Source: Planctomycetota bacterium (lineage in GTDB: Bacteria > Planctomycetota > Phycisphaerae > WQYP01). From it: a stretch of 6,739 bases of DNA. This document shows positions 1-6,739 of the stretch, piece by piece. The stretch lies in assembly GCA_021798635.1 (NCBI GenBank), contig JAJZGH010000255.1, forward strand, positions 1-6,739, given 5' to 3'. The first letter of the stretch is position 1. The number at the start of each line of letters is the position of its first letter. The notes beneath the pieces are model-generated. The model saw only the letters and a list, made by a program, of their open reading frames with translations. It was not told the DNA's origin and searched no databases. The position numbers and the translations under genes are program-made.

Positions 1-1915
1 ACACAACCTTGTTGACCCGCCCGAACATCTTGCTCAACGACTGATAGAACGCCCACGACATTGCCGCCGGGGCAGCCTTGGCAAACGCTTTTGATTGAAC
101 CGTCAGCGCCTTGGCCCGCCCCTGTTCAATATTGACCACCTTGGCGGCGTAACCGTCCGCCGCCAATAATTTACCCTTGGCATAACCTTGCGCCTGCGCC
201 ACATCCGCGTAGGCTTCGGTTTGCGCCTCGTCCACCAATTGCTCTTGAATTTCCCGAGACCGGACAACATTTTCAAACGCCGCGGCCGGACCCAACAATC
301 TTCCTTGCGCGGTATTTTGCGTCTGACCTTTGGGCGGATGAATATCTTTGATTTCCACGCTCAAAATCACAACGCCGGACTTCATCTGATCCAATACCTT
401 CTGCATGGCCTGTTTGATGCTTTCGGATACCGGCCCGACGTTGGATTCCATGATCTGCTTGAGTGTATTTTGTGCAAATACCCGCGTAACCGCATACAAA
501 AGCACCTGATGCACCAAAGCGGAATCCATCCGCCGCAGATGCAACGCGGAGCCGGCCCCCGTCAAGCCGCCCACTTCGATGATGTTGCTCGTTGAGACAT
601 GATCAAAAAATTCGCCGGGATTTTTCACGCGCCACCACGCCGCCACAAAGCCATCAAGCAACTGCGATGCCGGGCTGCCATCCGGATTGACATCCCCAGT
701 TAAAAATTCCTGATCCGGAATGGAAATATGCTGGCTCCAAAAAGAAAACGCATTGTTGCCCAGCAGATTTTTATCACGCTCTTCCGAGCCAACCACCACC
801 AGATTGACTTTATCCGTGGGTTCATCTTGCAGTTTATCAATCGGCCACGGCCACAAAATATGCAGGCCGGCCTGTAATGGATGCGCCAAATTCTCCGGAG
901 TTGTCACACCCAGATGTTCAAGAATACCCACCTCACCGGTCGGCACAACGTGCATGGTGCTTAATAGCACGACAAACAGAAAACCCGCAATCAAGATACG
1001 TGGAATTAACCGCGAAAAAATGGCGACGACCGTCGTGCCGCTGCTGGCCATGCCGATGCTTTCGGAAACCAGTACCTTAATACCGACAATCCACCCGCTG
1101 GAAAGCATGGGCACCAGCGGCAGTTGCTGCAAATCCACACCCGCCTGGTCCAATTCCACAATTCCGCCATGGCTGCGGATGGAATTAATGCCCAATTCAA
1201 AGGCTTGTAATACCAGCACCGCACCGATGAATATCGCAGCCGTCTGACTGGCGTAATCCACCTTGGCCCACACCGCAATGACCGCCGCCAATAGCACGAT
1301 CGCCCCGGGAATGCCCAGAATGACAATACTGTTAGAGGCGTCCACCAGACCTTCCGTATCCGGCCGCGGACGGGAAAAGGGAATCAACAGGATATAAATT
1401 AATAAGGCCGTGCCCGCGGCCACCACCGCACCGGGATCCAGCGGAACCGGTGAAATAACAATGGCATGGCCCGGCGAAACAGCCGCAAAATCCCGATACA
1501 CCAAAAACGCGATAATGCCGGCGAGCACCAGAAATCCCAAGGAGCATAAGCCCACAATCACCCGCTGAAACCCTGTATCCAGCGTGGTGATATCTTCCGG
1601 GGCCACCGGAGCCGGAGCCGCCACAGCCGAGCTGGCCGTTTCATCAGAGTAACTCATGTGAAACGCGCCCATCGGGGCCAGGGGCGTAAATTTCACACTG
1701 GCTTCCGCCTCAGCCTCATCCACCAGAGCCGCCTGCTGCCGCGCCAAGCGTAAGCCCCACCACGCCAGAAACGCCAGAACTGTCTGCCCCAGAGCCGCGA
1801 ACATCGCCGCCCAGAAGCAGACCGCGCCGTACTTAAATGTGGCAATGGCCAGAGCCGCTGTGACCAGCAGCAATCCCATCAAAACCCAAAATGCTACCGT
1901 GATTGATCGCTTCAC
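1..1915 (-). CDS. hflK: HflK-like SPFH/band 7 membrane protein with polytopic N-terminal extension (partial at left edge)
   Basis: An open frame of 638 codons starts at GTG (1915-1913) and runs off the left edge without a stop. The start is set by an in-frame TAA just upstream (1930-1928) and an AAGGA site 9 nt before the GTG. Residues 1-300 hold about six hydrophobic segments (roughly 4-27, 29-57, 118-140, 162-180, 195-217, 224-241). A seventh (about 305-322) precedes the SPFH core, which opens with VVPTGEVGILEHLG. HflK-like landmarks follow: FLTGDVNPDG (404-413), WWRVKNPGEFF (427-437), EIKDIHPPKG (521-530), then an Ala/Glu/Gln-rich coiled coil (about 545-612). The visible end, MFGRVNKVV, lines up with the E. 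coli HflK C-terminus, so few residues should be missing. E. coli HflK is about 420 residues with one membrane helix; it binds HflC and modulates the FtsH protease at the inner membrane. Family assignment is firm. Orthology to HflK is less certain because of the extension. It follows the ATPase gene closely, and hflC may lie beyond the edge. Confidence 0.9.
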   Translation of the reverse strand, partial: MKRSITVAFWVLMGLLLVTAALAIATFKYGAVCFWAAMFAALGQTVLAFLAWWGLRLARQQAALVDEAEAEASVKFTPLAPMGAFHMSYSDETASSAVAAPAPVAPEDITTLDTGFQRVIVGLCSLGFLVLAGIIAFLVYRDFAAVSPGHAIVISPVPLDPGAVVAAGTALLIYILLIPFSRPRPDTEGLVDASNSIVILGIPGAIVLLAAVIAVWAKVDYASQTAAIFIGAVLVLQAFELGINSIRSHGGIVELDQAGVDLQQLPLVPMLSSGWIVGIKVLVSESIGMASSGTTVVAIFSRLIPRILIAGFLFVVLLSTMHVVPTGEVGILEHLGVTTPENLAHPLQAGLHILWPWPIDKLQDEPTDKVNLVVVGSEERDKNLLGNNAFSFWSQHISIPDQEFLTGDVNPDGSPASQLLDGFVAAWWRVKNPGEFFDHVSTSNIIEVGGLTGAGSALHLRRMDSALVHQVLLYAVTRVFAQNTLKQIMESNVGPVSESIKQAMQKVLDQMKSGVVILSVEIKDIHPPKGQTQNTAQGRLLGPAAAFENVVRSREIQEQLVDEAQTEAYADVAQAQGYAKGKLLAADGYAAKVVNIEQGRAKALTVQSKAFAKAAPAAMSWAFYQSLSKMFGRVNKVV

Positions 1916-1929: not shown

Positions 1930-2020
1930 ACAAGCCGCTGATACCCTTGCAGATTGCGGCGCTTTCCCGCAACCCGGCAACTTCCCGCAAAAGTTTCACT
2001 TTGGTTAAAAAGACACTCAC
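1928..2020 (-). CDS. Possible 30-residue mini-ORF between the ATPase and HflK-like genes
   Basis: A GTG at 2020-2018 overlaps the ATPase TGA stop (2019-2017) as GTGA. The frame then stays open for 30 codons to TAA at 1930-1928, inside the ribosome binding site of the next gene. The peptide would start VSVFLTKVKLLREVAG and end CKGISGL: basic, with a short amphipathic-looking LRE..LRE stretch and no recognisable domain. Its frame is the same as that of the HflK-like gene. The tight packing (GTGA overlap, then TAAGGA) is what a coupling peptide or tiny protein would look like. However, there is no clear Shine-Dalgarno sequence before the GTG, and a 93-nt open frame can arise by chance. It could equally be a 101-bp spacer. 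I do not recognise it. Confidence 0.25.
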   Translation of the reverse strand: MSVFLTKVKLLREVAGLRESAAICKGISGL

Positions 2021-4122
2021 GCCTGTGACAACACCGGCGCGACGACTCCCTCGGGCGCTGCTTTTCTTCGGACTCCAATGGGCAATGGCTTGCGATTTAC
2101 ACCGACATCACCTGCCAACCGCACCGAATTCACCGCTATAACAACCACTGCCAGCATGTGAATCAGCGCCGCAACCACCGGGCCGAACAGGCCGAAGGCC
2201 GCCGCCACCAAAGCGAAGATTGCGAAAAATAAAGCATATCCGATATTCTGATAAATCGCGACACGCGTCTGACGAGCCAGATAAATTAACAACGGGATAC
2301 GCGTAAGATCATCCTTCAGCAGAATCGCATCCGCCGCCTCAATGGCCGCATCCGTGCCCCGCAATCCCAGTGCAATCCCCACCGTAGCCGCCGCCAGAGA
2401 TGGCGCGTCATTAATCCCTTCCCCAACCATCGCCACGCCATGATCACCGCGTTGCAACTGCCGAATTAATTCCTCTTTCTGTGCCGGTAACAACTCAGCA
2501 TATATGTCATCACATCCGACCGCACGGCCAACCATTTGAGCCGTCTTCCGGCGGTCACCGGTCATCATGACAATGCGCTTCACACCCAGATTCCGCAAAT
2601 GCTTTATAGCCCGACGCGCCTCAGGACGAATTTCATCCGTCAGGCAAATCGACCCCATCAAGCGCCCTTCGTGCATCACATACACGGGTACCAGCGGTAA
2701 TTCCGACTCTGCGGCTTCCACATTGCCCGCTCCGGCGGCTAATTCCGGCGGCAGAATCTTAAGCGACCCCGCGCGCGTCACCCGCCCATCCACATCAGCC
2801 TCAACGCCCAAGCCTTCCAGAATTTTTACGTCCGACGCTTCATGAAACGCCACGCCGCGATCCCGCACATAAGAACAGATGGTCTTGGCCAATGGATGGC
2901 TGCTGCGGTTTTCCACCGCCGCCGCCAATGCCAGCAATCGGCTTTCTTCCACGCCTTCCGCCGGACGCACACTATGAACAATAAATTTGCCCGTGGTCAG
3001 CGTACCGGTTTTATCAAATACCACCGTATCCAGATTCACCGACGCTTCCACAAATGGCCCGGCCTTAATTTGAATACCGCTGCGGCTGGCACGCGCCAGC
3101 GCCACTACAATCGCCAGCGGCGACGCCAGCAGCATCGCGCATGGGCACCCCACCACCCACATGGTGATCATCCGGCCCGGCTGCCCGGAAACCCAGAAGG
3201 CCACCACTGACAGCACCAGCACCAACGGTGTATAGAAGGAGAAAAACCGGTCGGCCGCACGAATCACCTGTGGCTGATACTGCTGTGCCCGCCGCACCAG
3301 GGCAATCGTCTGCCCCAATGCCGAATGCTCGCCGACGCGTGTAACCTGGGCCTGCACCGAGCCGGTAAGATTAATAGTACCCGCCAAAACCGTGCCACCC
3401 GCGGTCTTATCAACCGGAATGGATTCGCCCGTAACCATGGATTCATCCACGCTGGTGGAACCGGTTACCACTGTGCCATCACCCGCGATGCGTTCGCCGG
3501 GTTCAATAACCAGCATATCGCCCTCACGCAGCGATTCAGCGGGGATAATTTCATCTTTTTCGCCCCGCCGCACACGGGCGTGTACGGGGGCCAGATTCTG
3601 CAACGCCAGCACCGCGTTACGCGCGCTTTCCGTGGCCACCTGTTCAATTAAGGCACCCACCTGCAGCAACAACGCCACCAGACCGGCCTCAATAAGCCAG
3701 CCCAAGGCAATGGCTCCGATTACGCTTAATGCCACCAGTTCATTAACATTGGTTCTACCGCGGGATAATCCCTTGGCTGCCTGCCAGAAAATCGGCCCGC
3801 CCGAAATCAGCGCCGCCAACAGACCCAACGCACGAGCAATCGGTATTTCCGTGGGGAACTGGTAGAAAATGCCCGCCAAAATTAACAACGCCACCGTTGT
3901 CGGTACCAGAACCGAAAGCTGCAACTGCAAACTTACACCGGAATGGCTATGCCCCGCCGCTTGGCCCCCAGGGCCAGGCCCATGGTCATGCCCGCAGGCA
4001 CAGGCGATGCCATCCATGGCATCAGAATTTGCCGAATGCGAATGATTATGCTCCGGTAAGGGCACCGCTACTTCACCAATCCGGACTGAAGTGCCGCTTG
4101 GAGTTGGGTTTATCTGGCTCAC
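2017..4122 (-). CDS. P1B-type heavy-metal-translocating ATPase
   Basis: This 701-residue inner-membrane pump would export a soft or transition metal ion using ATP. Diagnostic motifs are in order: TGES (231-234, actuator), GCPCAM (325-330, the CPC metal site in a membrane helix), DKTGTLT (370-376, D370 phosphorylated), SHPLA (408-412, the HP motif of P1B pumps), MTGD (520-523) and GEGINDAP (567-574, normally GDGxNDxP). About eight membrane segments fit the family (near 68-88, 95-115, 127-142, 143-160, 294-312, 318-345, 625-645, 648-668). There is no N-terminal HMA domain. Residues 25-60 instead form a His/Cys-rich tail (HNHSHS, CACGHDHG, GHSHSG) that could bind metal. The last helix reads AALIHMLAVVVIAVNSVRL, so it has neither the Asp-Thr-Gly of typical Zn/Cd pumps nor the Met-x-x-Ser-Ser of Cu pumps; the metal cannot be named. 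The start is GTG with a weak GGTGA 4 nt upstream. The stop overlaps a GTG of a mini-ORF, and the HflK-like gene follows 101 bp later. Confidence 0.95.
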   Translation of the reverse strand: MSQINPTPSGTSVRIGEVAVPLPEHNHSHSANSDAMDGIACACGHDHGPGPGGQAAGHSHSGVSLQLQLSVLVPTTVALLILAGIFYQFPTEIPIARALGLLAALISGGPIFWQAAKGLSRGRTNVNELVALSVIGAIALGWLIEAGLVALLLQVGALIEQVATESARNAVLALQNLAPVHARVRRGEKDEIIPAESLREGDMLVIEPGERIAGDGTVVTGSTSVDESMVTGESIPVDKTAGGTVLAGTINLTGSVQAQVTRVGEHSALGQTIALVRRAQQYQPQVIRAADRFFSFYTPLVLVLSVVAFWVSGQPGRMITMWVVGCPCAMLLASPLAIVVALARASRSGIQIKAGPFVEASVNLDTVVFDKTGTLTTGKFIVHSVRPAEGVEESRLLALAAAVENRSSHPLAKTICSYVRDRGVAFHEASDVKILEGLGVEADVDGRVTRAGSLKILPPELAAGAGNVEAAESELPLVPVYVMHEGRLMGSICLTDEIRPEARRAIKHLRNLGVKRIVMMTGDRRKTAQMVGRAVGCDDIYAELLPAQKEELIRQLQRGDHGVAMVGEGINDAPSLAAATVGIALGLRGTDAAIEAADAILLKDDLTRIPLLIYLARQTRVAIYQNIGYALFFAIFALVAAAFGLFGPVVAALIHMLAVVVIAVNSVRLAGDVGVNRKPLPIGVRRKAAPEGVVAPVLSQA

Positions 4123-4317
4123 ACATTCACCACAAAATACGTTAACAACAAAATCTTTTTCACACGCCGCCTCCGTTCCGCCCTGGCGAAAACAGCGGCA
4201 CCTTACCGCCTCAGCCTCTTACTCTTTATTTCTCTCGCACACCGGATTCGGGCGGCGGTCTGCTTTCTTCCGCATATTATCGGCTTTTGGCCATGATCTG
4301 CTGAAGCACAGCGCCAA
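4123..4317 (-). other. Long untranslated leader of the ATPase gene (no gene seen)
   Basis: If transcription starts downstream of the TATAAT at 4330-4325, the ATPase mRNA has a leader of about 195 nt. It holds no start codon with a good ribosome binding site in the ATPase frame. A 7-bp perfect long-range pairing is possible between CGCCGCC (4257-4251) and GGCGGCG (4171-4165), enclosing purine-rich sequence with a smaller GGCGG/CCGCT helix. I could not match it to a known riboswitch such as the NiCo or yybP-ykoY classes. It may be a structured leader, or plain GC-rich spacer. Confidence 0.3.
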
Positions 4318-4324
4318 CGCCACC

Positions 4325-4355
4325 ATTATACGGAACAGTTTACCATAAGGTTCAG
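4325..4355 (-). promoter_or_regulatory. Candidate promoter of the ATPase operon with long spacer and imperfect dyad
   Basis: A perfect TATAAT (4330-4325) stands in the spacer right after the kinase stop. The best -35 is weak: CTGAAC (4355-4350), 19 nt upstream. A GAAC (4353-4350)/GTTC (4336-4333) dyad falls between the two boxes. MerR-family metal regulators act on promoters with 19-20 bp spacers and a dyad in the spacer, so the layout would suit metal control, but the dyad arms are only four exact bases plus scattered matches. The -10 match is what I see; its use and regulation are inferred. Confidence 0.4.
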
Positions 4356-4360
4356 ATAAT

Positions 4361-5311
4361 TTACACCCGCGCTACAACCACCCGCTTCAGAAACGTGGAA
4401 TATTTCACTGAATCGAAAATTTCCAAATCTGCCGAAACCGCACGCGCTGTCGCCAGCGCCAGGCCGATCCCCAGTGCCTGCATCGGCGATTTCCCCTGCG
4501 CTAAGCCATGCACAAAACCCGCCAGTAAATGATCACCACACGCCACCGTGCGTACCACCGGTTCCGACACCGATATACTACCCGTAACGCATTCGCCCTG
4601 CCGAATCAGCAACGCACCAAGTTGGCCCCGGCTAACCAGCAGATTTTCCACCTGGCTCGCCTGTTTCCCAGCCGCCGCCGTGATATCCGCAACGGTTTCC
4701 AGCTTGCCGGTTCCCCAAGCCTCGGCCAATTCCTCGGCATTGGGTTTGGCAATCCATAAGGGTCTGCGCATCGCCAGCGTTAATGCCTCCCCTGCCGTAT
4801 CCACACCCACTTTCGCACCCACAGATAGCGCTATATCCAGCAAGTCACCAAACTGCTGTGCGCTTAGCCCCTGCGGCAGGCTTCCGCAAAACAGCACCGC
4901 ATCTCCCGGCTGCACCGTTTCCTTCAAATCCTTTTCCAGGGCCGTAATATCTGTTTTCTTTACCTCAAAGCCCGCAAGCCGTATATGCGTTTCCGTCTCG
5001 CCGTGGAGAATCGTGATATTCTGCCGCGTGGCCTGTGGGAAAAGGCTGAAGTGACCCACCACCGCCCCGGGCCGCAGCTTGTGCAACTGGTCCTTAAAGA
5101 AAGGCCAATCCCCCTCCCCTAAAAACCCGTACGCCAGCACATCCTGCCCCAGCAACGCCAACGCCCGTGTCACATTCGCCGCCTTACCCGCCGCCATCCG
5201 CGCTACCAACCGCCCCGAATTCACCCGCCCCGGCAAAAACTCCGCACACCGCACCACATAATCAATCGCCGGATTCAACCCAACCGTTATAACATTCTTC
5301 ACCATCATCAC
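4361..5311 (-). CDS. PfkB-family phosphosugar kinase (1-phosphofructokinase/tagatose-6-phosphate kinase type)
   Basis: This soluble ribokinase-fold enzyme of 316 residues is close in length to E. coli FruK (312). It would transfer phosphate from ATP to a phosphorylated sugar such as fructose 1-phosphate. It starts VITVGLNPAIDYVV (7-20), the signature of the FruK/LacC branch, with substrate residues N13 and D17. It continues with MAAGKAANVTRAL (39-51, the GGKGxNVA loop), TRQN (95-98), the GSLP turn (143-146), KPNAEEL (189-195) and SRG (227-229). The catalytic loop reads VACGD (256-260), with the base aspartate D260 kept but the usual GAGD changed to ACGD. Possible starts are GTG 5311, ATG 5308, ATG 5305 and GTG 5302. 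All lie within 10 nt and do not change the domain. No strong Shine-Dalgarno sequence precedes them. Exact substrate cannot be settled from sequence. The ATPase gene follows after 238 bp that hold their own promoter candidate, so a shared operon is unlikely but possible. Confidence 0.93.
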   Translation of the reverse strand: MMMVKNVITVGLNPAIDYVVRCAEFLPGRVNSGRLVARMAAGKAANVTRALALLGQDVLAYGFLGEGDWPFFKDQLHKLRPGAVVGHFSLFPQATRQNITILHGETETHIRLAGFEVKKTDITALEKDLKETVQPGDAVLFCGSLPQGLSAQQFGDLLDIALSVGAKVGVDTAGEALTLAMRRPLWIAKPNAEELAEAWGTGKLETVADITAAAGKQASQVENLLVSRGQLGALLIRQGECVTGSISVSEPVVRTVACGDHLLAGFVHGLAQGKSPMQALGIGLALATARAVSADLEIFDSVKYSTFLKRVVVARV

Positions 5312-5316
5312 CCAAG

Positions 5317-5322
5317 ATTATA
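5317..5322 (-). promoter_or_regulatory. Candidate -10 box of the kinase gene
   Basis: A perfect TATAAT on the minus strand ends only 5 nt before the first possible start codon (GTG 5311). A transcript starting about 7 nt downstream would begin at or next to the GTG/ATG/ATG run, giving a leaderless or nearly leaderless mRNA. No good -35 is visible, because the upstream 30 bases are GC-rich (GGCGGCGGGGCGGC). Treat it as a possible promoter only. Confidence 0.3.
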
Positions 5323-5343
5323 TCCCGGTGCCGCCCCGCCGCC

Positions 5344-5420
5344 AGAATCCGGAACCTGGAATCTGAAATCTGAAATTTCAGATCCGGAACCTGGAATTTA
5401 GAACCTTGAATCTCGTATCC
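5344..5420. repeat. Degenerate heptanucleotide array, consensus RGAAYCT, 11 units
   Basis: Cut from 5344 in steps of seven, the sequence gives 11 consecutive related units (for example agaatcc, ggaacct, ggaatct, gaaatct, tgaatct) with no slippage to 5420. Within it the 16-bp string atccggaacctggaat occurs twice exactly (5347-5362 and 5382-5397, offset 35 = 5 x 7). One stretch, ATCTGAAATTTCAGAT (5368-5383), is a perfect 16-bp palindrome. The period-7 phase is seen directly; the origin is unknown. Confidence 0.85.
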
Positions 5421-5423
5421 AGA

Positions 5424-5446
5424 AAAATTGCAGCGCAGCGCTTCAA
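5424..5446. repeat. 23-bp direct repeat, copy 1
   Basis: Exact 23-bp copy of 5828-5850, starting aaaattgcagcg and ending cagcgcttcaa, with an internal GCAGC-GCAGC-GC duplication. Bases on both sides differ between copies. It directly follows the RGAAYCT array and overlaps the start of the CAACYYT array. Confidence 0.9.
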
Positions 5447-5485
5447 CGTTGCGCGCTCAACTTTCAACCCTCTACTTTCTCCCCT
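5444..5485. repeat. Degenerate heptanucleotide array, consensus CAACYYT, six units
   Basis: Units in 7-bp steps from 5444 include caacgtt, caacttt, caaccct, ctacttt and ctcccct, with one unrelated unit (gcgcgct) in second place. The plus strand is pyrimidine-rich. The 23-bp repeat runs into its first unit. Confidence 0.6.
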
Positions 5486-5504
5486 CTGGCCGCGCCCCGG
5501 CCAT

Positions 5505-5532
5505 GGATCACAGATCAACGATCACGTATCAA
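5505..5532. repeat. Heptanucleotide array, consensus NGATCAM, four units
   Basis: Four 7-bp steps read ggatcac, agatcaa, cgatcac and gtatcaa. The GATCA core is kept in three units and the fourth has TATCA. It is unrelated in sequence to the neighbouring arrays but has the same period. Confidence 0.7.
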
Positions 5533-5550
5533 AATTTGGAACCTCCAAAA

Positions 5551-5585
5551 ATTTACCCATTACTCATTATTCATTACCCATTAAA
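5551..5585. repeat. Heptanucleotide array, consensus CATTAYY, five units
   Basis: Five consecutive 7-bp units: atttacc, cattact, cattatt, cattacc and cattaaa. The CATTA core is identical in four. This is the clearest heptamer array in the spacer. Confidence 0.8.
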
Positions 5586-5603
5586 CCGCCCCATCCGAAT
5601 GTG

Positions 5604-5638
5604 CTCTACTTTCAACTCTCCAAATTCACCTCTCTATC
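5604..5638. repeat. Weak pyrimidine-rich heptanucleotide array
   Basis: Units ctctact, ttcaact, ctccaaa, ttcacct and ctctatc in 7-bp steps share a loose YTCWMCT pattern similar to the array at 5444-5485. The similarity is low enough that it may only reflect composition. Confidence 0.4.
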
Positions 5639-5653
5639 GGGCCGCAGCCCGAT
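5636..5653. repeat. Perfect 7-bp hairpin
   Basis: ATCGGGC (5636-5642) and GCCCGAT (5647-5653) pair perfectly around a CGCA loop. There is no T-run on either side, so it does not look like an intrinsic terminator, and it lies far from any gene end. Confidence 0.6.
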
Positions 5654-5714
5654 GCCCGCGCAATCCGCAGTCCAACCCCGTCCTATTCCCAGCGCACATA
5701 TGCCGCCCAACGCT

Positions 5715-5742
5715 GTAACCCGTAACCTGTCCCCCGTAACCC
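5715..5742. repeat. Heptanucleotide array, consensus GTAACCY, four units
   Basis: Units gtaaccc, gtaacct, gtccccc and gtaaccc follow one another in 7-bp steps; three keep the GTAACC core exactly. Confidence 0.75.
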
Positions 5743-5748
5743 CGTCCG

Positions 5749-5805
5749 CCTCTGTGTCCTCTGTGGCTGGTGCCCCCTTTTTTTCGTGCCTTTGCGCCTT
5801 TGTGG
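5749..5805. repeat. Two nonanucleotide repeats (CCTCTGTGK and GCCTTTGYG)
   Basis: CCTCTGTGT and CCTCTGTGG stand in tandem at 5749-5766. After a T-rich stretch, a second 9-bp-period doublet built on GCCTTTG lies at 5788-5805. Read on the minus strand this gives the ACCACAAAGG...GGCAC and CACAGAGGACACAGAGG phrases. From general knowledge, such phrases recur in intergenic DNA of several phyla and are often mistranslated as TTKAQRH/ATEDTE peptides. They are not coding here. Confidence 0.7.
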
Positions 5806-5827
5806 TAAACCCGTCCGCCACCCCCGC

Positions 5828-5850
5828 AAAATTGCAGCGCAGCGCTTCAA
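5828..5850. repeat. 23-bp direct repeat, copy 2
   Basis: Exact copy of 5424-5446, 404 bp further right, in the same orientation. As with copy 1, a heptamer array follows on its right side, here AACTCCY at 5859-5872. Confidence 0.9.
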
Positions 5851-5858
5851 ACACTTCT

Positions 5859-5872
5859 AACTCCCAACTCCT
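5859..5872. repeat. Heptanucleotide pair AACTCCY
   Basis: aactccc and aactcct stand in tandem, with a weak related unit (cacttct) before them. Two clear units only, so it is supported mainly by the company of the other 7-bp arrays. Confidence 0.5.
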
Positions 5873-5890
5873 GAATACTAAGGCCTGAAA

Positions 5891-5917
5891 CATCTTGGAC
5901 ATCTTGGCCACCTTCAA
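5891..5917. repeat. Nonanucleotide array left of the foldback element (CATCTTGGM)
   Basis: catcttgga, catcttggc and caccttcaa stand in tandem with a 9-bp period. The 16-bp string cttggacatcttggcc (5894-5909) recurs exactly at 6258-6273 on the other side of the foldback element. Confidence 0.7.
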
Positions 5918-5950
5918 CCAAACCCGCCAAAATCAACCACTTCCTCCACC

Positions 5951-5965
5951 TGTCCAACTTGGACA
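5951..5965. repeat. Near-perfect 15-bp palindrome beside the foldback element
   Basis: TGTCCAA (5951-5957) and TTGGACA (5959-5965) are perfect inverted copies around one base. The right arm is also part of the 9-bp TTGGACA phrase found in the flanking arrays. It ends four bases before the left terminal repeat of the 278-bp element. Confidence 0.55.
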
Positions 5966-5969
5966 CCTG

Positions 5970-6247
5970 GGAGCCTGTCCGAGTAATGGCCGGGATTGCG
6001 ATGGGTCTGAAATGTCCCGTATGCGCGGCGGAGGATCGAGCCGACTCTGGATAATGAGTCTGCGAGATCCGACAACAAAGCAGACGGGGCATTTCAGGCC
6101 CACCCGCAGGGCGGCGTGCTTTTTGGCCCCCCTCTGCGGGCGCGGCTCCTCGGAGTACCATCCCTGTCAGGTACGCCATCGTCGCGGCTTCTTGATGGGT
6201 GCCAAAAATCACGCCGTCGCAACCCAGCGATTACTCGGACAGGCTCC
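5970..6247. mobile_element. 278-bp foldback element, MITE-like, with 18-bp perfect terminal inverted repeats
   Basis: The ends are perfect inverted copies: ggagcctgtccgagtaat (5970-5987) and its reverse complement (6230-6247). Similarity continues inward for about 20 more bases with one gap (GGGattgcgatGG against GGG-ttgcgacGG). Inside lie nested hairpins. One pairs 6007-6020 with 6084-6097 (13/14), enclosing 6033-6047 with 6056-6070 (12/15). Another pairs 6113-6129 with 6199-6215 (15/17), enclosing 6152-6159 with 6170-6177 (7/8). CCCGCAG/CTGCGGG (6103-6109, 6134-6140) offers an alternative pairing. There is no transposase; the open frames across it are too short and have no recognisable domain. 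This is the build of a non-autonomous MITE mobilised in trans, or of an interspersed structured repeat. No clear target duplication is seen (CACCTG left, TACCCC right). I cannot assign an IS family. Confidence 0.7.
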
Positions 6248-6254
6248 TACCCCG

Positions 6255-6290
6255 TGACTTGGACATCTTGGCCGCCTTGGTGTTTTCTGG
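6255..6290. repeat. Nonanucleotide array right of the foldback element
   Basis: Steps of nine give tgacttgga, catcttggc, cgccttggt and gttttctgg, all with a TTGG- or CTGG-type end. The second unit is identical to one in the left array (5900-5908). Confidence 0.5.
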
Positions 6291-6444: not shown

Positions 6445-6739
6445 ATGCGTAAGCACCTTTTAGCCCTGGCGGCGGTGGTTCTAGTGGGAGCTGCGGCCCC
6501 GCTTGTTCCGGAATTGGCCCATGGCCAGGATGCCGTCGCGGCAGCCAAAACCGGGACGATTACCGGTAAAGTTGTTGATTCCAGCGGTAACCCCGCCAGC
6601 GGTGCCATTGTCCGGGTGGCTCGGATAAGCAAGTCCGGCGGCCACGGTGGATGGTTTCCCCAACCAAAAGTTGGCCAGACCATCTGGCAGATCACCGGCT
6701 TTGCCAAGACGGCTACGGATGGAACTTTCAGTCTCCAAA
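6445..6739 (+). CDS. Exported protein with carboxypeptidase-regulatory-like domain (N-terminal part)
   Basis: Ninety-eight codons are visible before the right edge. The protein begins MRKH, followed by a long hydrophobic core (LLALAAVVLVGAAAPLV, 5-21) and an AHG site (25-27), which predicts a Sec signal peptide cut near residue 27. After a short linker, GTITGKVVDSSGNPASGAIV (37-56) followed by TATDGTFSL (89-97) matches the carboxypeptidase-regulatory-like (transthyretin-like) beta-sandwich. In that fold the G-x-V-x-D...G-x-P-x-x-G-A-x-V strand pair and the T-D-x-x-G-x-F-x-L return strand are typical. A Gly/Trp-rich loop (SGGHGGWFPQPK, 64-75) is inserted between them. Such domains occur in secreted or cell-surface proteins; function cannot be told from the part seen. 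The gene is divergent from the kinase gene across 1.1 kb of repeats. Confidence 0.85.
   Translation, partial: MRKHLLALAAVVLVGAAAPLVPELAHGQDAVAAAKTGTITGKVVDSSGNPASGAIVRVARISKSGGHGGWFPQPKVGQTIWQITGFAKTATDGTFSLQ

Follow-up and report, generated by a model that had tools for sequence, protein, structure and literature searches.

Heptamer arrays beside a pfkB gene of a Phycisphaerae bacterium as probable parts of a patchwork of dispersed repeat modules with in-frame relatives in glycosyltransferase genes

The short tandemly repeated repetitive (STRR) sequences scattered through the genomes of heterocystous cyanobacteria have CCCCAGT-like units of seven nucleotides. As reported in two later papers (PMC4679880, PMC4692102), heptamers are the commonest long repeat unit in many bacterial genomes, and polymerase slippage with an interaction length of 7 nt has been proposed for them (Mrazek et al., 2007). 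Further systems are the GGGGAYT repeats of Nostoc (Rehm et al., PMC4692102), heptamer-derived satellites in bacteria (PMC6749651), the TAACTGA direct repeats of Beggiatoaceae, Cyanobacteria and Bacteroidetes (MacGregor, 2015, PMC4679880) and the Rickettsia palindromic elements (RPE), dispersed repeats which lie in frame in unrelated protein genes and encode a recurrent peptide (PMC10969869). Here, a 6,739-bp stretch from a Planctomycetota bacterium (contig JAJZGH010000255.1; hereafter the window) is analyzed, in which a succession of heptamer arrays at positions 5344–5872 lies directly upstream of a pfkB-family sugar kinase gene. With a probability of roughly 0.7, this succession represents a patchwork of dispersed, non-autonomous repeat modules belonging to one Phycisphaerae family, with arrays that step by slippage and without a dedicated device for counting seven. 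Such modules combine short tandem arrays, in most cases of heptamers and in some of 9-mers, with GC-rich hairpin linkers, and some also include a miniature inverted-repeat transposable element (MITE). They are found again at further locations and in different species, their presence varies at the pfkB gap, and related modules are found in frame within glycosyltransferase genes, with content at the same site differing by species.

Within 5344–5872, identity at lag 7 is 0.423 compared to a mean of 0.269 in dinucleotide shuffles (z 7.8, none of 500 shuffles as high), followed by signals at lag 14 (z 6.7, 0 of 500) and lag 21 (z 3.9, 1 of 500). The period of seven proposed in an initial annotation of this DNA is therefore clearly stronger than in shuffled sequence of matched dinucleotide content. 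Elsewhere in the window lag 7 is not elevated, neither in the ATPase gene (z –1.8) and pfkB (z –0.6) nor in the intergenic stretch 4123–4360 (z 0.1). The expectation that other intergenic DNA should carry the period is thus disappointed by the second gap of the window but borne out in the lineage, for which the genome-scale counts come from relatives and not from the genome of the window itself. In a 415-kb sample of G003, a member of a family of 28 genomes, non-open-reading-frame (non-ORF) DNA reaches 0.2803 at lag 7 versus 0.2576 and 0.2593 at lags 6 and 8 (genic DNA, 0.2465), and the lag spectrum has its maxima at 7 and 14 and lesser rises at 21 and 28. Moreover, 39 period-7 arrays were called in 416 kb of this genome (four large contigs picked for carrying earlier matches) compared to 1 and 0 in two block-shuffled sets. 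After seven, the most frequent periods are 9 (10 arrays), 15 (7) and 12 (5), which codon structure could yield. Seven is hence the dominant period, and many heptamer types are strung together, as the annotation had it. Outside G003, five period-7 arrays were found in 318 kb of G016 and four in 200 kb of G319, where some stretches were picked at matches, and one in 200 kb of G349, for which the shuffled set also gave one; densities at loci chosen at array-rich or glycosyltransferase contigs are biased in the same way. Plain chance, that is, a few accidental short repeats in a single intergenic region of low complexity, would accommodate arrays that are individually short and imperfect, one of them being missed by Tandem Repeats Finder (TRF), but it is refuted by the shuffle test together with the array excess in G003, conflicts with the word matches in other relatives and the dispersed copies described below and has a likelihood of practically nil.

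Words of the arrays are unevenly distributed in the family. GAAYCT-type matches occur in 15 of the 28 genomes (G003 231, G024 130, G023 92, G002 67, G001 34, G025 32, the rest at most 9), AACTYCT matches in 17 (including G003 with 351, G023 with 94 and G008 with 80) and GTAACCY matches in 8 (65 in G023, 0 in G024). Backward-pattern controls gave 0–3 matches per genome and strand, except for GTAACCY in G004 (4 and 4). Across the phylum the AACTYCT word is patchy, as a threefold repeat of it is matched in only 12 of 392 genomes, with 322 matches in G003, 46 in G319 and 1–5 in each of the other ten. G319, with its 46 array matches, is the genome of a distant planctomycete and includes a contig of 7.74 Mb (C1).

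The following parts of the patchwork can be distinguished:

5342–5419, plus strand: GAAYCTG-type heptamer array of 78 bp and 11 units, from the array caller and lag-7 test, directly upstream of pfkB
5419–5446, plus strand: linker word CCAGAAAAATTGCAGCGCAGCGCTTCAA, copy 1, in direct repeat D4 (93% to 5823–5850)
5455–5487, plus strand: CAACYYT-type array, listed by TRF as a 14-mer at 5456–5487
5506–5531, plus strand: GATCAC/GATCAAC run of about 3.7 units, recognized by eye and not called by TRF
5553–5583, plus strand: TTACCCA/CATTAYY array of 4.4 copies (TRF)
5588–5968, plus strand: dispersed module with a second CAACYYT block (5603–5635) and the GTAACCY array
5715–5742, plus strand: GTAACCY array of 4.0 copies with 71% matches (TRF)
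5786–5806, plus strand: GTGCCTTTGCGCCTTTGTGGT word, whose reverse strand reads FTTKAQRHE
5823–5850, plus strand: linker word, copy 2, direct repeat of 5419–5446
5853–6279, plus strand: dispersed composite of AACTCC units, TTGGACATC 9-mers, the MITE and another TTGGACATC 9-mer
5970–6247, strand not assigned: 278-bp MITE-like element whose 25-nt terminal inverted repeats are 92% complementary

Four of the five arrays named in the annotation are found by TRF in some form, but the GATCA run is seen by eye only. The longest array had been described as running without slippage, in agreement with the 78-bp call for the GAAYCT-type run, within which TRF lists three copies (5356–5376). The patchwork extends beyond 5872 to about 6279, and pieces of it have copies elsewhere. 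The composite 5853–6279 shows 93% identity over 427 columns to another place in G003 (L048:18880–19305), and the module 5588–5968 aligns with L045 at 70% over 429 columns. The first 65–95 bases of this module match L048, L022, L157, L063 and L012, and from 5591 its start also matches L009, L051 and L054. Shorter pieces behave likewise, with 5558–5592 matching L040 of G001 (89%), 5751–5968 and 5824–5872 matching L157 (83 and 88%, respectively), 5826–5881 matching L019 (84%), and the GTAACCY array having matches of 93–95% in L009 and L015.

For following the length changes of arrays, 344 arrays were compared, yielding 70 pairs in which both flanks are alike (at least 28 nt at 78%), 27 of equal and 43 of unequal length; same-locus pairs within 100 bp were dropped, and L064–L068 and L079–L108 were left out here as well as from the window-segment and MITE comparisons. 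Among the unequal pairs, 23 of 43 differ by a multiple of seven where about 6 are expected (binomial p 1.9e-9), a value to be read with the fact that one array may enter several flank-matched pairs, which are hence not independent. When disjoint pairs were drawn at random 2000 times, however, a mean of 19.5 pairs still contained 10.8 multiples of seven, with a median p of 2.4e-5 and a largest of 0.009. When eight pairs were aligned, six displayed clean array gaps of 7, 14, 21 or 35 bp and one displayed none. Length changes in whole heptamers, which the annotation had suggested looking for between strains, are therefore found between paralogous and cross-species copies, the material of this comparison. 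Flank-matched copies in general were used instead of the close pair G016 and G024, since G016 has no GAAYCT match and few arrays.

The annotation had further regarded the heptamers as unrelated sequences sharing nothing but their period. From 235 unique runs (L064 and identical runs left out), 1308 units were obtained which fall into 239 of the 1172 possible heptamer necklaces, with 62% of the units in the top 20, and the catalogue is headed by AACTCCT, AACCTGG, AACTTCT and AATCTGG. Common words were then put in one alignment and phases scored at junctions of different words at most 14 bp apart, the class considered comprising 15 words of AACTCCT, GAACCTG and GTAACC type. The register is kept at 290 of 296 junctions between words one difference apart and at 41 of 43 between words two apart, as is expected for near-identical words. 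Words differing in at least three of seven positions keep it as well, at 24 of 31 junctions compared to 4.4 expected (p 4.9e-15; 25 of 33 over all loci, the first count having left out L064 and 17 overlapping G024 loci). As the word alignment was written after some loci had been seen, the count is partly circular for one-step pairs, and it is the figure for words at least three positions apart that matters. Hence, the AACTCCT/GAACCTG/GTAACCY class shares one register and the claim of unrelatedness is not supported for it, but it may be valid for the GATC- and ATTACC-type words, which meet this class at seven junctions with scattered phases; GATCACG and TGATCAA words have a common register of their own in relatives. 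Along the arrays, mismatches between units rise from 1.44 for neighbors over 1.71, 2.22 and 2.59 (four units) to 3.03 at a distance of eight, an effect partly built in by calling runs on neighbor similarity.

These results bear on the idea that a mechanism counting seven is at work. It would take the form of a dedicated heptamer writer, a telomerase-like enzyme working from a 7-nt template or in 7-bp steps, different templates giving different words. Whole-heptamer steps are what such an enzyme would produce, seven is alone among the periods in G003 that are not multiples of three, and species favor different words, as G008 has 80 AACTYCT matches and none for GAAYCT or GTAACC, and G024 lacks GTAACC. 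However, the decay of similarity along arrays, with the reservation just given, and the in-register blending of words fit local duplication plus mutation and not independent copying of templates, and 9-mer words are present within the same modules. No candidate heptamer-adding enzyme came up, although no search for one was made. We consider the writer very unlikely, and the counting mechanism is not upheld, as no finding requires a dedicated counter and slippage on heptamer arrays accounts for the whole-unit steps.

That the arrays are not a single mobile repeat, as the annotation stated, is correct, but they do recur as parts of dispersed modules. Locus L023 (G003:C87) harbors 17 array clusters in 18 kb, accompanied by 9- and 10-mers and by recurring linkers, namely the GGCAGGCTTTGCCTGCC hairpin and repeated AGCGCAGCGCTTCC linkers related to the CCAGAAAAATTGCAGCGCAGCGCTTCAA linker word of the window. 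The 9-mer words ACTGAATGT and CAGATTNCN accompany heptamers in genes and gaps (L023, L053, L066 and a protein alignment, A1), and such words keep one reading frame because their length is a multiple of three. Concerning the MITE, the segment 5970–6247 is short and multicopy and has terminal inverted repeats, copies of 277–278 bp being present in L048, L055, L021 and L023 and matches of up to 97% identity in 14 of the 28 family genomes. Pairing of MITE ends gave lengths of 44–54 and 277–278 bp plus one 2890-bp pairing in the window; no parent transposon was found in the loci examined, the search covering distances of up to 3.5 kb between ends and allowing at most five mismatches in the second end. 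Miniatures of 44–54 bp, barely more than both ends, lie at L047 9203, L063 3428, L006 11226 and L023 12053.

Apart from the patchwork, the window contains the following genes and, as far as known RNA families and tRNAs are concerned, no further element:

2–1915, minus strand, open: Band_7/SPFH protein
2017–4122, minus strand: P-type ATPase
4361–5311, minus strand: pfkB-family sugar kinase, the neighbor of the arrays (Pfam PF00294, E 2e-28; relatives 84–86% identical)
start at 6445, plus strand: small gene, divergent from pfkB

The arrays are located in the 1.1-kb gap separating the divergent pfkB and 6445 genes. Relatives of pfkB with 84–86% identity are encoded in three metagenome-assembled genomes (MAGs; loci L001, L002 and L003, the last belonging to G003) assigned to Planctomycetota or Phycisphaerales. 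At L001 and L002, pfkB is separated from the same small gene by only about 0.4 kb, a TATAAT-like box beside pfkB is kept, and the array caller finds no arrays in these orthologous loci. At L003, a TTCAGAT/TTCCAGA/TTCCAGG array of 122 bp (9839–9960) ends about 40 bp from pfkB, compared to about 30 bp in the window, and is of the same type as the GAAYCTG-type array of the latter (71% over 103 columns). An AACTCCT array follows about 125 bp beyond, and the gene order farther out differs from the window. Since arrays are absent from the L001 and L002 gaps and present near pfkB in L003, they come and go at one place. By eye, the TATAAT box (within 5306–5322 of the window) ends 8 bp before the pfkB ATG in the window and in all three relatives, and 5 bp before the GTG start chosen by the ORF lister in the window; the spacing to the ATG suggests a leaderless pfkB transcript.

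Position upstream of a promoter-like TATAAT box, with a GAAYCT-type array in both the window and L003, might point to a regulator that binds the arrays and acts on transcription or, as has been suggested for TAACTGA repeats, on translation, with selection retaining its sites upstream of genes. This interpretation is weakened by the array-free orthologous promoters of L001 and L002, which keep the box, and by the distribution in the G003 sample, where arrays are densest between convergent genes (35, or 1.27 per kb) and least dense between divergent ones (14, or 0.58 per kb), and where a sizeable number lie inside long ORFs (see below). A regulatory role of the arrays is thus improbable.

The in-gene copies are best seen in L023, where two glycosyltransferases contain array sequence, which also forms the end of one of them and both ends of an acyltransferase. 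Throughout a 726-kb sample of G003, 29 of 175 arrays lie inside ORFs of at least 200 aa and 12 overlap an ORF end. The 29 are distributed over 12 ORFs, with 22 in four glycosyltransferases and the acyltransferase (five ORFs in two clusters), two in RHS-like ORFs and five as singles in an HSP70, another glycosyltransferase, a sigma-54 activator, a DNA glycosylase and one ORF without a hit; the five singles may be ordinary coding repeats. As in RPE, the repeat lies within an open gene whose frame is unbroken. Insert-free homologues have 10–15 and 10–14 residues where the glycosyltransferase P0002 has 67 and 82, based on four of ten loci, the other six being dropped as reading short or out of the gene's frame. 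At the first site, the orthologues of G003, G016, G024 and G027 all carry an insert; that of G016 resembles that of G024, whereas those of G003 and G027 are different. The second site is occupied in G003, in G024 and in G016, whose contig ends there, but has no insert in G027. At the DNA level, P0001-type genes of G016 and G003:C100 have their flanks in common (88 and 90%) and most of the insert not, the C100 insert being 89% identical over 295 columns to that in a different G024 gene, and the two G016 genes share a right insert half of their own.

Searches with the P0002 insert regions yielded 35 and 9 proteins, every one of which has glycosyltransferase domains, a result favored by the glycosyltransferase seed, the length limit and the enzyme core within the first region. 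By eye, the same insert peptides are present in about six glycosyltransferase subfamilies in alignment A1, and FTTKAQRHE, the reverse reading of GTGCCTTTGCGCCTTTGTGGT in the window, is close to the FTTKTQRHE peptide of inserts in P0008, P0012 and P0016. Also in A1, P0015, P0022 and P0023 look like near-identical glycosyltransferases, P0015 having a duplication of about 54 residues and P0022 ending in a different word. Spread beyond glycosyltransferases is documented only by the acyltransferase ends and the RHS-like ORFs. Two ORFs of L010 (2352–3077 and 4250–5029), which from their motif we take to be RHS-repeat-like and for which there is no Pfam hit, bear word-like stretches such as CSLIFERS, the second also NHQRSMITDQ.

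Whereas no frame of a perfect AACTCCT array is free of stops, a stop-free form with TAY for TAA is found in six copies in same-strand ORFs and one outside. The stop-bearing form, in contrast, is present in 0 of 65 copies in same-strand ORFs, with 9 in opposite-strand ORFs and 56 outside (Fisher p 4.5e-8; the sample is of one genome, the copies may go back to a single stop-free module, and any stop in frame would terminate the ORF in any case). The in-gene copies have a single stop-free form in common, which looks as though a coding-compatible module had spread by copying between genes. An AlphaFold2 model of P0002 (28 sequences, mean predicted local distance difference test score (pLDDT) 70.9) has 325 of 530 residues at 70 or above and the inserts 196–259 and 296–373 below 50, with the glycosyltransferases MshA and BshA as best PDB matches. 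The inserts are accordingly predicted as disordered loops.

Such modules might be adaptive, forming a diversity-generating reservoir by which surface-polysaccharide glycosyltransferases vary their loops, the intergenic copies being donors or remnants. The concentration of in-ORF arrays in the four glycosyltransferases and the acyltransferase of the G003 sample, the replacement of content at fixed sites between species and the number of subfamilies affected would be in line with this. On the other hand, there is no sign of loops touching an active site, although none was looked for, low-confidence, disordered predictions are compatible with mere tolerance, the glycosyltransferase-seeded searches are biased, and word-derived stretches occur in the RHS-like ORFs of L010 as well. 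An adaptive reservoir therefore appears unlikely. Somewhat easier to entertain, albeit still doubtful, is an undescribed class of modular inserts, frame-tolerant heptamer mosaics actively spreading in the genes and intergenic DNA of one family and continually swapped at fixed loop sites in surface-polysaccharide glycosyltransferases. If this applied, a slippage-prone, frame-neutral 7-bp repeat would be raw material for protein loop diversity.

Returning to the patchwork of dispersed modules, its history might be pictured as follows. Whole-unit steps would arise when arrays slip during replication or recombine unequally, and point mutation would drive neighboring units apart. Modules would spread and replace one another through recombination between shared words, aided by horizontal transfer of gene clusters, and insertions would persist where they are harmless, in intergenic gaps, at gene ends and in surface loops. 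Seven may be favored because heptamer arrays are slippage-prone in many bacteria, as has been proposed. Since a stop-free 7-bp unit is open in every frame, gains and losses within genes would be tolerated as long as their sum keeps the frame.

Several points weigh against this reading, besides the shared arrays of flank-matched pairs and the limits given with the distance effect and the stop test. Differences in 20 of the 43 unequal pairs are not multiples of seven, and the L059/L150 alignment has a 15-bp gap beside a 21-bp gap. The MITE had to be rejected as carrier of the arrays, as G024 has arrays without a MITE match and G012, G015 and G018 have 54, 57 and 28 MITE matches with none to the three array words. 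No target-site duplication, integrase, transposase or reverse transcriptase could be linked to the modules, although none was sought genome-wide. Finally, the comparison DNA outside the window includes metagenome bins. Between L050 (G003:C123) and L162 (G024:C186), 4.7 kb are 99.9% alike, which could be due to recent horizontal transfer or a misbinned contig; other G003/G024 pieces in the same comparison are about 78–96% alike, except for one 208-bp piece at 99%.

The bacterial preference for heptamers has been in print since 2007, with slippage as a suggestion and few follow-ups. This lineage supplies many comparable steps, in the form of matched copies with whole-unit changes and in-register word blends, and its enzyme inserts allow selection to be read from stop codons and frame. 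For annotation, domain searches in such MAGs are misled, for example in P0002, where the match to the second Pfam domain, Glycos_transf_1, lacks the first 48 profile positions and begins at position 49. A specialist would most likely be surprised by the in-gene inserts; searches of an open-access library brought up no report of in-frame heptamer mosaics in planctomycetes, and a search within the text of PMC4060949 did not find the term heptamer.

Set beside the known systems, the arrays resemble heptanucleotide long simple sequence repeats in that a 7-bp tandem unit is over-represented versus shuffles and varies in copy number by whole units (23 of 43 pairs). They differ from these repeats by the blending of related words in one register, by dispersed modules with hairpin linkers and by in-frame copies in enzymes. 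STRR, to which the annotation had compared the locus, are a fair look-alike, consisting of short tandem heptamers scattered between genes with few units each. Here, however, the pfkB relatives place the host in Planctomycetota/Phycisphaerales and not among heterocystous cyanobacteria, and the unit sequences (a catalogue led by AACTCCT), the many words per locus and the in-gene copies are at variance with STRR. TAACTGA, which is not among the 70 commonest of the 239 unit necklaces, forms heptamer arrays of two to many units with a patchy distribution, some overlapping gene ends, like arrays described here, and supplying stop codons there. It is one word, however, and similar heptamers are rare as repeats (PMC4679880), in contrast to the word family and the large internal in-frame inserts of this lineage. 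With MITEs, the locus shares the multicopy segment 5970–6247 and its terminal inverted repeats, but some genomes have arrays and no match to this MITE, and others have the MITE and no match to the three array words. RPE, finally, are likewise dispersed in-frame repeats encoding a recurrent peptide; they are palindromic elements of about 150 bp (PMC10969869), whereas variable mosaics of arrays and linkers, with hairpin linkers as only a part, are swapped here between species at one site. The lineage further suggests that working enzymes can take up, and be enlarged by, repeats usually classed as noise between genes, a parallel to RPE in Rickettsia that involves a different type of sequence.

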